Positions 23,356 through 55,431 of a stretch of DNA of 64,000 nucleotides are shown piece by piece; within the stretch, counting starts at the first letter, position 1, and each line of letters begins with the position of its first letter. The DNA is from Lachnospiraceae bacterium (GTDB lineage: Bacteria; Bacillota; Clostridia; Lachnospirales; Lachnospiraceae). A model generated the notes under the pieces. That model had not been told where the DNA came from and did not search any database. It worked only from the letters and a program-made list of their open reading frames with translations. The translations under genes and the position numbers were made by a program. The DNA lies in assembly GCA_021205755.1 (NCBI GenBank), contig JAJPWX010000046.1:1-64000 (forward strand). The letters are read 5' to 3'.

Positions 23356-23823
23356 ATGCCGGATATAGCAAAGCAAAAACAACAGAAAGAATACCAAAAA
23401 TATGTAAAAGAAATAACGCCGACCCACAGCCTTGCCCTGAATATGTGCAAGGCTTTTGTTACAGGCGGTGCAATCTGTGTAATTGGTCAGATCATCACAA
23501 ACTGGTGTACCTCCCTGGGAATGGAAGACCAGACAGCGGCGAGGTGGTGCTCTCTGCTCCTTGTTCTGCTCAGCGTGATCCTCACTGGATTTGGAATATA
23601 CCCCAAACTGGCAAAGTTTGGCGGCGCTGGTACGCTCGTGCCGATTACCGGTTTTGCGAATTCCGTTGCGGCTCCGGCGATCGAGTATAAGAAAGAAGGC
23701 CAGGTCTTCGGCATCGGCTGTAAGATTTTTACCATCGCCGGACCGGTGATTTTGTACGGGCTGTTCACCAGCTGGGTGCTGGGGCTGATTTACTGGGTGC
23801 TGAAGATGATTGGGGTGATGTGA
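23356..23823 (+). CDS. spoVAC: Stage V sporulation protein AC
   Basis: SpoVAC is an inner-membrane component of the spore dipicolinate channel, mechanosensitive in Bacillus. The 155-residue protein has an N-terminal charged stretch (KQQKEYQKYVKE), then four hydrophobic segments starting near 30, 62, 90 and 125; NMCKAFVTGGAICVIGQ is the family signature. Partners spoVAD and spoVAE are not next to it. A second, truncated copy of its 3' end lies 1.3 kb downstream on the far side of the Fic module. Confidence 0.93.
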   Translation: MPDIAKQKQQKEYQKYVKEITPTHSLALNMCKAFVTGGAICVIGQIITNWCTSLGMEDQTAARWCSLLLVLLSVILTGFGIYPKLAKFGGAGTLVPITGFANSVAAPAIEYKKEGQVFGIGCKIFTIAGPVILYGLFTSWVLGLIYWVLKMIGVM

Positions 23824-23992
23824 GCAGGGAAAGTTTTCTTTTTTTATTTCGAAGAAGCACCGCCGGAATGATGTGTTGATACTGCGAGTTTTCAATTGCT
23901 CAATATGTCTGCATCGGGGTGTTGGATTGAAACATTTTGTCCTTTGGTGCAACGTGGCGGAGATAATTAATAATGAGGCAGACATGATACAG

Positions 23993-25072: not shown

Positions 25073-25117
25073 TAAATCATATTAGGATGTTACATTTTTT
25101 CTAATGTACCCCTGGCA

Positions 25118-25246
25118 GAAGGTCAAACTTTCGGAATAGGCTGCAAAATCTTTACCATTGCCGGTCCCGTAATCCTGTACGGGCTATTCACCAGCTGGGG
25201 GCTGGGATTGATTTACTGGGGGCTGAAGATGGTTGGGGTGATGTGA
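25118..25246 (+). pseudogene. Truncated second copy of the spoVAC 3' end
   Basis: Translation gives EGQTFGIGCKIFTIAGPVIL and onward to KMVGVM and a stop, matching the last 42 residues of SpoVAC. By hand count about 106 of 129 bases match 23695-23823, most differences being silent third positions. The similarity continues past the stop with an identical GCAGGGAAAGTTTTCTTTTT. The 5' part of this copy is missing; the Fic module lies where it would be. The remaining part of 25073-25377 has no gene except the GGDEF promoter region. Confidence 0.85.
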
Positions 25247-25300
25247 GCAGGGAAAGTTTTCTTTTTATATTTCCAAGAAGCGCGCTCCCATTTTGATGTT

Positions 25301-40725: not shown

Positions 40726-40945
40726 GTAACAGTTCAGAACAGCATCAAAAAGAAAAGACAGACTGTGCAGATTTATCTGCTAAAGGCTGTATTTTCTTTT
40801 TGGGATGGGCGGGTGCTGATCGTCCAGTGGACGATCGTTTAGCACCGACCGAAGTGAAACGGAGACGCCCATCAGCCACAGACATATGACGCGTTAGCGG
40901 CATATAGCCTGCTTAGCAGGCGGTCTGCGGCTTGCTGTTCTGAAC
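40726..40945 (+). repeat. Structured inverted-repeat element, copy A (upstream of ilvE)
   Basis: The element has perfect 13-bp terminal inverted repeats, GTTCAGAACAGCA at 40732-40744 and its complement at 40933-40945; the left end extends to GTAAC at 40726. Inside are, in order, a long A/T stem containing the small hairpin GCAGATTTATCTGC, an expanded stem beginning GATGGGCG with inner GATCGTCCA/TGGACGATC, and a branched stem CAGAC/GTCTG holding two hairpins (ATATG..CATAT and GCCTGC-TTA-GCAGGC). It resembles copy B (reverse complement) closely apart from the expanded second stem. It fills 40700-40945, and the rest of 40467-40990 holds the VWA promoter and the ilvE leader. Confidence 0.85.
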
Positions 40946-40990: not shown

Positions 40991-42016
40991 ATGGAGAAAA
41001 AGAATATTGACTGGGCAAACCTTGGGTTTGGCTATATGCAGACCGATAAGCGGTATGTGGCAAATTATAAGGACGGCGCCTGGGATGACGGCGCTCTGAT
41101 TTCGGACGCGACTGTTACGATCAGCGAGTGCGCGGGTGTGCTGCAGTATGCGCAGACCTGTTTTGAGGGGTTGAAAGCCTATACCACGGAGGACGGTCAT
41201 ATTGTAATGTTCCGCCCGGATCTGAACGCTTCCCGCCTGAAATCCTCCTGTGAGCGCCTGGAAATCCCTGTATTTCCGGAAGAGCGTTTTATCGAAGCGG
41301 TTGCCAAGACCGTAGCTGCGAATGAAGCGTATGTACCACCCTATGGTTCTGGCGCGACGCTTTATATCCGTCCGTATATTTTCGGCAGCAGCGCGGTGAT
41401 CGGCGTGGCTCCGGCTGCAGAGTATCAGTTCCGCGTATTTACGACGCCGGTAGGCCCATACTTCAAGGGCGGAGCAAAGCCGCTGACGATCCGTGTGTCT
41501 GACTTTGACCGTGCGGCACCTCATGGCACTGGACATATCAAAGCAGGACTGAATTACGCGATGAGCCTCTATGCGATCGTTGACGCGCATCAGAAGGGCT
41601 TTGATGAAAATATGTATCTGGATCCGGCTACACGGACAAAGGTAGAGGAGACTGGCGGTGCGAACTTCCTGTTCGTAACGAAGGACAATAAGGTCGTGAC
41701 TCCGAAGTCGGGCAGCATTCTTCCGTCCATCACGCGCCGTTCCCTGATTACGGTCGCGAGAGATTACCTTGGTCTCGAGGTAGAGGAGCGTGAGGTTCTC
41801 TTCGATGAGGTGAAGGATTTTGCGGAGTGCGGTCTGTGCGGCACGGCGGCCGTTATTTCCCCGGTCGGCAAGATCGTTGATCACGGAAATGAGATCTGCC
41901 TGCCGAGTGGCATGACGGAAATGGGTCCGGTGACAAAGAAGCTCTATGACACTCTGACCGGTATCCAGATGGGCCGCATCGAAGCACCGGAAGGCTGGAT
42001 TCATGTGATTAAATAA
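40991..42016 (+). CDS. ilvE: Branched-chain amino-acid aminotransferase
   Basis: IlvE performs the last transamination step for Leu, Ile and Val. The 341-residue class IV PLP enzyme has RPYIFGSSAVIGV near 123, the PLP lysine around GTGHIKAGLNYAMS near 182, and the ETGGANFLFV segment near 217. It is the only plus-strand gene between the minus-strand VWA and MoxR genes and ends 24 bases before the MoxR stop. The leuB-ilvD-ilvB genes of the same pathway are 12 kb downstream. AAGGAAGG precedes the ATG. Confidence 0.95.
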   Translation: MEKKNIDWANLGFGYMQTDKRYVANYKDGAWDDGALISDATVTISECAGVLQYAQTCFEGLKAYTTEDGHIVMFRPDLNASRLKSSCERLEIPVFPEERFIEAVAKTVAANEAYVPPYGSGATLYIRPYIFGSSAVIGVAPAAEYQFRVFTTPVGPYFKGGAKPLTIRVSDFDRAAPHGTGHIKAGLNYAMSLYAIVDAHQKGFDENMYLDPATRTKVEETGGANFLFVTKDNKVVTPKSGSILPSITRRSLITVARDYLGLEVEEREVLFDEVKDFAECGLCGTAAVISPVGKIVDHGNEICLPSGMTEMGPVTKKLYDTLTGIQMGRIEAPEGWIHVIK

Positions 42017-44193: not shown

Positions 44194-44228
44194 CCTGGCT
44201 CACGGTTTCGCGGGTATATAAGAAAATG

Positions 44229-44404
44229 GTAACTATTCAGAACAGCAGGCCGCAGACCGCCTGCGATGCAGGCTATATGCCGCTAACGCGTCATATGTCT
44301 GTGGCTTGATGGGCGTTCCGCCCATCCCGAAATGAAAATACAGCCTTTAGCAGGTAAACCTGCACAGTCTGTCTTTTCATTTCGATGCTGTTCTGAACTG
44401 TTAC
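44229..44404 (-). repeat. Structured inverted-repeat element, copy B (upstream of aroK)
   Basis: On the minus strand this reads GTAACAGTTCAGAACAGCA at its start and ends TGCTGTTCTGAATAGTTAC, giving 19-bp terminal repeats with two mismatches. Internal stems are the same as in copy A: CGAAATGAAAA/TTTTCATTTCG, nested GCAGGTTTACCTGC, GATGGGCG-GAA-CGCCCATC, and CAGAC/GTCTG with two hairpins. It occupies most of the 307-base gap between the small exporter gene and aroK. Confidence 0.85.
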
Positions 44405-44421
44405 AGAAAATGTGCGGGGTT

Positions 44422-47303: not shown

Positions 47304-47352
47304 GAAAGTAAAGCTCTATGTTATTCAGAAAATTATTTAAGTAAATAAAAAT

Positions 47353-47393
47353 AAGAAAAGACAGTCTGAATTTGATACAGGCTGTCTTTTCTT
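47353..47393. terminator. Bidirectional terminator between the PRTase-like gene and the activase gene
   Basis: AAGAAAAGACAG and CTGTCTTTTCTT form a 12-bp stem, with three further inner pairs. T-rich sequence exists on both sides, suiting two convergent genes. Confidence 0.75.
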
Positions 47394-47402
47394 AATGCCT
47401 AA

Positions 47403-54246: not shown

Positions 54247-54322
54247 GTAACAGTTCAGAACAGCATCGACCGGAGCGAAACGGAGATGTGCAGGTTTACC
54301 TGCTAAAGGCTGTATTTTCTTC
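54247..54322 (+). repeat. Structured inverted-repeat element, copy C, truncated (upstream of leuB)
   Basis: The exact 19-base end GTAACAGTTCAGAACAGCA is at 54247-54265. It is followed by CGACCGGAGCGAAACGGAGATG, which resembles part of the expanded second stem of copy A, and then by TGTGCAGGTTTACCTGCTAAAGG with CTGTATTTTCTT, shared with A and B. The right terminal repeat is missing. It ends 27 bases before the leuB start. Confidence 0.75.
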
Positions 54323-54348: not shown

Positions 54349-55431
54349 ATGAACTATAAGATAGCGGTCATTCCGGGCGATGGGATTGGCCCGGAGATTG
54401 TGAAGCAGGCACAGCGCGTACTGGATGCGGCTGCTGCGAAATTTGGCTTTGAACTGGAATACACCAGTCTTTTGATGGGCGGCGCATCGATTGATGCGAA
54501 TGGTGTTCCTCTGACAGAGGAAACCATCTCCATTGCAAAAGCGAGCGATGCGGTACTGATGGGCTCCATCGGCGGCGACGCGAAGACGTCTCCGTGGTAT
54601 CAGCTTCCGCCGAATCTGCGCCCGGAAGCAGGGCTTCTGGGGATTCGCAAGGCTCTGAATCTGTTTGCGAACCTTCGGCCTGCGTATCTTTATGAGGAGT
54701 TAAAGGCAGCCTGCCCGCTCTCGGATGAAACCATCGGTGATGGTTTTGATATGGTGATTGTGCGTGAACTGACTGGCGGCCTGTATTTTGGCGAGCGGCA
54801 CACGGAAACAGTGGATGGGGTACGGACAGCGACCGATACACTGGTGTATAATGAAAATGAGATTCGCCGGATTGCGAGGAAAGCCTTTGAGATCGCACAA
54901 AAGCGCCGCAAAAAGGTGTGCAGTGTGGATAAGGCGAATGTGCTGGATTCCTCACGTCTCTGGAGAGCTGTAGTCGAGGAAGTCGCGAAGGATTATCCGG
55001 ATGTTGAATTGTCTCATATGCTGGTGGACAATTGTGCGATGCAGATTGTAAAGGATCCGGCGCAGTTTGATGTGATTCTGACAGAGAATATGTTTGGAGA
55101 TATTCTTTCGGATGAGGCGAGCATGGTGACCGGTTCGATCGGGATGCTTTCCTCCGCCTCTTTGAATGAGACAAAGTTCGGTCTTTATGAGCCGAGTCAT
55201 GGCTCCGCTCCGGATATCGCGGGGCAGGGCATCGCGAACCCGATCGCTACCATTTTATCTGCGGCGATGCTCCTTCGATATTCGCTGGATCAGGACGAGG
55301 CGGCGGACGCGATTGAGAATGCGGTGAAGCAGGTGCTGAGTGAGGGTTACCGTACTGTGGATATTATGAGCGAGGGCTGCGAAAAAGTCGGCACGGAAAA
55401 GATGGGTGAGCTGATCGCCGAGCGCGTGTAA
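54349..55431 (+). CDS. leuB: 3-isopropylmalate dehydrogenase
   Basis: LeuB oxidises and decarboxylates 3-isopropylmalate in leucine synthesis, using NAD. The 360-residue protein shows [17 protein letters not shown] near the start, [13 protein letters not shown] near 102, [13 protein letters not shown] near 138 and the metal/substrate site [21 protein letters not shown] near 245. The first gene of leuB-ilvD-ilvB, preceded by truncated copy C. leuC and leuD are not in view. Confidence 0.95.

Follow-up and report, generated by a model that had tools for sequence, protein, structure and literature searches.

What keeps the two sides of a stem complementary while its letters change is the question raised by three related segments in a 64,000-nt stretch of DNA from a Lachnospiraceae bacterium (the whole stretch is called the window below). 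The initial annotation compared these segments (copies A, B and C), reported compensatory changes in the first stem and in a hairpin nested within it, and ascribed them to selection on a folded RNA or on a DNA cruciform. All letters that it quoted for the three copies were found in the window. Arm 1, the stem in question, reads CAAAAAGAAAA/TTTTCTTTTTG in copy A (40746-40802, plus strand) and CGAAATGAAAA/TTTTCATTTCG in copy B; its nested apical hairpin is GCAGATTTATCTGC in copy A (40767-40780, plus strand, loop UUUA) and GCAGGTTTACCTGC in copies B and C; and the arm 3 loop between CCTGC and GCAGG is TTA in copy A and ATC in copy B.

Full copies share one plan, in which the inverted ends GTAACAGTTCAGAACAGC and GTAACTATTCAGAACAGC enclose arms 1, 2 and 3; the general end pattern is GTAAC[A/T][A/G]TTCAGAACAGC, inverted, around the three arms. 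The element copies have no coding capacity. Copy A (40726-40945, plus strand, 220 nt) lies 5' of ilvE (40991-42016). On the plus strand it consists of the left terminal inverted repeat GTAACAGTTCAGAACAGC (40726-40743), arm 1 with its conserved G.A and A.G mismatches, arm 2 (40804-40873, GATGGGCG/CGCCCATC), which is split by a 54-nt accessory module inserted in its loop (40812-40865, GGTGCTGA..CGGAGA), arm 3 with two sub-hairpins (40875-40931), and the right terminal inverted repeat (40934-40945, inner part GCTGTTCTGAAC), which is decayed; copy A has no target duplication. Copy B (44229-44404, minus strand, 176 nt) is complete, lacks the accessory module and is bounded by the 8-bp target site duplication AGAAAATG on its left (44221-44228) and right (44405-44412). 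Copy C (54247-54321, plus strand) is a 75-nt truncated derivative, reduced to the left repeat, a residue of the accessory module and the apical portion of arm 1. It lies 5' of an ORF (54349-55431) that we take to be leuB-like from its translation; the names ilvE, leuB, pheS and pheT are likewise presumptive, assigned by reading translations rather than by family searches.

Accessory modules of this kind reside in arm 2 in copy A and in arm 1 or arm 3 elsewhere. Across the copies they were seen in all three arms (loci L005, L006, L007, L008 and L030), as if mobile or copied between arms. Two other features were noticed in the window. A near-perfect hairpin between convergent genes (AAGAAAAGACAG..CTGTCTTTTCTT, 47352-47394) resembles the outer part of arm 1 and is probably a bidirectional terminator, and a 165-nt direct repeat (23694-23858 and 25117-25281) is 85% identical, with the two units 1,423 nt apart.

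The calculated RNA folding energy is -113 kcal/mol for copy A and -94.9 kcal/mol for copy B; both values lie some 11 sd below those of shuffled sequence. When 190 near-full copies were aligned to a profile by sequence only, 93% of the 11,990 pair cells were Watson-Crick, and the top nine of 13,861 column pairs by the APC-corrected G statistic are all stem pairs. The paired changes noted in the window are non-random: their column pairs 21-75, 25-71 and 45-50 rank 4, 1 and 3 among the 13,861 in these 190 copies. Significance was assessed with a home-made APC-corrected G-test, for which null alignments were simulated on a FastTree tree. Taken one by one against this tree-based null, only four pairs reach E<0.05 (E ~0.03 or less), namely 21-75, 25-71, 45-50 and 135-141, three of which are the changes named in the initial annotation. 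In a large alignment, the test that the annotation itself proposed, the covariation is significant. For the structure as a whole, none of 500 shuffles attained any of five measures.

The copies share ancestry and are not independent, and the assemblies are of uncertain completeness, many of them metagenomic; with this limit, 82 divergent copies have 94.6% of cells paired, with both-side changes in 41 of 52 pairs. The number of cells changed on both sides among them is 320, compared with 79.5 +- 10.4 in shuffled and 23-60 in slid structures. RNAalifold, run on the same MAFFT alignment as this count, independently predicted 39 pairs, of which 32 had changed on both sides.

The plan extends beyond the genus of the window. 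A BLAST search found matches in 31 of 60 relatives, all inside the genus. With a covariance model of the 140-nt body and a cut-off of E <= 1e-4, the element was detected in 30 of 199 genera in the family, frequently with numerous copies, whereas 199 other genomes sampled from the phylum gave no match. Most records carrying the element come from uncultured Lachnospiraceae in metagenomes. Matches scoring below about 40 bits are the weakest; they lack clear ends and may be look-alikes rich in hairpins, although the control genomes of the phylum speak against many such. Sequences from other genera have the same closing stem and three arms with other stem letters, and 52 of 52 pairs changed on both sides across genera in an alignment that was fitted to the model and thus leans towards structure. 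Among the covariance models of Rfam 15, none matched the element above its gathering score, tRNA and tmRNA being the only hits, and phages, plasmids and viral contigs gave no match. Our literature search found no relevant open-access description of such repeats in Lachnospiraceae; an earlier one in a subscription journal is possible.

The element is mobile, non-autonomous and MITE-like. Searching at the DNA level, we found 58 matching pieces in the genome of the window, where the end motif occurs about 141 times compared with 0 for a reversed control pattern. Among 56 copies in which both inner ends are intact, 24 lie between identical 8-bp flanks, where 0.4 are expected from re-paired flanks, and perfect 8-bp duplications also occur in at least two other genera (G099, G243). 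At the site of copy B, the relatives G010 and G015 have an empty site, in which the flanks abut and a single AGAAAA(T) target remains. The element thus has terminal inverted repeats, a target site duplication, empty sites, small size, many copies and no transposase gene, as is characteristic of MITEs. The spacing between the ends is mostly 160-180 nt, at times 220-280 and at times about 50. Derivatives of roughly 50-120 nt that lack all or most arms keep the ends, and some have matching flanks; movement thus does not strictly depend on a complete fold.

The GTAA termini and the 8-bp duplication match features of IS66, as checked on a genuine IS66 of a relative from the same order (L270). IS66 was nevertheless rejected as the mobiliser, since no IS66 transposase was found in the window's genome and the IS66 copies of relatives have different ends. 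An autonomous partner with GTAACWRTTCAG ends was not found in the portions of genomes that were searched. A pair of ends 1,970 bp apart in L168 was also discarded as an autonomous element, as it consists of degenerate short copies flanking ordinary genes.

Several features of the insertion sites have a direction. Where 7 or 8 flank bases match (28 copies), the target duplications follow the consensus NAWTTTTT on the plus strand of the element, T exceeding A in 23 and A exceeding T in 5; a transposon whose two ends are nearly identical would not be expected to show such orientation. Close downstream of 42 of 184 copies there is a partial repeat (18-85 nt) of the copy's own 5' part, with the same subfamily letters, the loci including L303 (the pheS-pheT spacer of G000), L304, L306, L309 and L311; the mirror arrangement, with the partial repeat upstream, was seen once. 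In one of two close relatives, everything between the two direct repeats has been lost, or in the other it has been gained. Tandem copies with spacers of about 15 nt occur in other genera (L336/L345 in G212, three in a row, and L357 in G252), and three copies (L370, L375, L024) adjoin tRNA genes.

Compensatory change continues after insertion, as copies that occupy matching sites in different records demonstrate. In 18 disjoint flank-matched pairs (11 matched on both flanks, 7 on one flank only), we counted 64 double changes from one Watson-Crick pair to another. Changes that created or removed a G-U pair numbered 24, those that did so for A-C numbered 11, and single changes involving other mismatches numbered 41. 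One way to obtain such changes is template-switch (quasi-palindrome) mutagenesis at replication, which would keep the arms complementary and make the paired changes a by-product in a passive MITE. Template switching is a documented source of compensatory changes in a single step, and 61% of double changes were reported to be G-U-compatible (PMC8794818); the share in our data, 63 of 98, is near that value, and the arms are long near-perfect hairpins.

Yet template switching is strand-symmetric, and one-sided changes in 90 disjoint near-neighbour pairs produced 92 G-U and 43 A-C pairs (binomial p = 3e-5), an excess of about twofold. It would also erase internal purine mismatches, which about 80% or more of the copies retain; counted by mismatch, they are kept as G.A in 120 of 186, A.G in 125 of 188 and G.A in 151 of 190. 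It would further invert loops, yet none of the 190 copies has its UUUA or GAA loop inverted. The loops are instead kept, with UUUA in 161 of 190 and GAA or GGA in 176 of 190, while arm 3 often carries a GNRA loop (GUAA, GCAA); CUUG loops occur as well. Finally, template switching leaves the occurrence of one three-arm plan across genera unexplained. We therefore regard it as an unlikely explanation of the whole pattern, though it may contribute in part to the paired changes.

The strand-specific excess of wobbles, the kept purine mismatches and the kept loops lead us to prefer an RNA made of the plus strand as the object of selection. In 152 of 181 copies the plus strand has the better fold of the two strands; so have all 19 sequences compared from other genera, which owing to common ancestry and the strand-specific model are not independent evidence. 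On the opposing side, the ratio of G-U to A-C did not differ significantly between copies in sense and antisense orientation (p = 0.25). The double-stranded cruciform treats the two strands alike and cannot yield such asymmetry. Of the two possibilities raised by the initial annotation, the folded RNA is the one supported, and the cruciform is disfavoured as the sole cause, given the strand-asymmetric mismatches, the kept purine-purine mismatches and the kept loops.

A wider form of the DNA explanation deserves consideration, namely that a DNA hairpin or cruciform is selected because, for example, a nuclease or nucleoid protein recognises it or because it is extruded in transposition, in the manner of attC sites. 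The hairpins are stable in both strands, a strand-specific single-stranded DNA substrate would also give asymmetry between G-T and A-C, and the oriented target duplications (23 versus 5 for the NAWTTTTT consensus) imply that some step distinguishes the strands. Incompatibility of the double-stranded form with the asymmetry, the clear 8-bp duplications that are unlike attC, and the derivatives that keep ends and duplications after loss of the arms make selection on DNA structure doubtful as the main cause.

A role in particular operons was a further candidate, with the copies acting as cis-regulatory RNAs (attenuator-like leaders) and copy A regulating ilvE. Copies A, B and C are indeed co-directional with the genes downstream, and an old site in the pheS-pheT spacer retains the element or a remnant in several species: some keep the element with different stem letters and others only a direct-repeat remnant. 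Over all copies, with gene orientation taken from a home-made caller, no bias relative to neighbouring genes was found (38 sense and 29 antisense among old copies, 6 and 10 among young ones), which does not support a function in host mRNA in general. The neighbouring genes are unrelated, no common protein having been found among the translations read at eight loci, and site occupancy differs among close species. Operon-specific regulation is accordingly very improbable, and the absence of an orientation bias and the unrelated neighbours indicate that the position of copy A upstream of ilvE is probably incidental. The pheT genes of L362 (G015) and L363 (G031) contain an in-frame insert of roughly 25 codons near codon 157 with hairpin-like sequence; it was rejected as a copy of the element, its sequence being unrelated.

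We conclude that the element is probably a non-autonomous MITE-like transposon with a 140-nt body that is maintained, most likely as RNA, in a three-armed fold of the plus strand. It would be mobilised in trans by a transposase making an 8-bp staggered cut; its stems would be rewritten stepwise, often via G-U intermediates, and copies with a broken fold would be lost or unable to spread. The most economical reading is that the folded body would make copies tolerable in transcribed intergenic regions or give a selfish advantage. As a most likely guess, a compact RNA in untranslated regions and between the genes of operons may resist RNases or Rho, which would make an insertion tolerable; alternatively, the fold may serve the element's own mobility.

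A more far-reaching reading gives the fold a part in the life cycle of the element: the mobilising machinery would recognise the plus strand in the form of RNA or single-stranded DNA, or this strand would protect the element, and spread would then depend on a structured nucleic acid and not on the ends alone. We hold it to be rather unlikely, and it would, if true, explain the oriented targets, the strand-asymmetric wobbles and the one-sided downstream repeats of the 5' part. With selection on a plus-strand RNA as the preferred reading, the analysis adds to the initial annotation a transposon with 8-bp target duplications, its spread across the family and the rival of template-switch mutagenesis. 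The bodies of MITEs are usually seen as passive filler; here one architecture is found across many genera with nearly every stem pair rewritten. The many copies of varied age in each genome form a natural experiment on RNA selection versus DNA template switching in compensatory change, and flank-matched insertions permit a direct measurement of the two. The element would represent a structured family that has not been listed, from a group dominant among gut bacteria.

Among known systems, the attC sites of integrons function in the form of folded single-stranded DNA and leave no target duplications. They resemble the element in that structure is kept as the sequence turns over and in strand asymmetry, and some sites of the element also hold tandem units; the element differs by its clean target duplications, dispersed single insertions and three arms in place of one imperfect hairpin. 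MITEs of the IS66 family share the GTAA start and the 8-bp duplication, but the rest of their terminal sequence is different. The bcr1/BCR repeats of the Bacillus cereus group, in the available parts of their descriptions, are dispersed intergenic sequences of about 150 nt that are MITE-like and have a predicted conserved structure, with about half of the copies transcribed (PMC3446304, PMC6542083, PMC2267715). By these accounts they match the element in dispersal, intergenic location, MITE-like character and conserved predicted structure; they belong to another bacterial order, their mobility is tied to TTTAT rather than to variable AT-rich 8-bp duplications, and those parts do not describe a three-arm fold across genera. 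ERIC, RUP and Correia/NEMIS are, like the element, small non-coding mobile palindromes with terminal repeats and target duplications, and ERIC RNA influences the stability of flanking mRNA (PMC2229807). Their termini are 5'-TA, whereas the element has GTAAC termini and an 8-bp duplication, and it is set apart from them by its three-arm body and by the swapping of modules.
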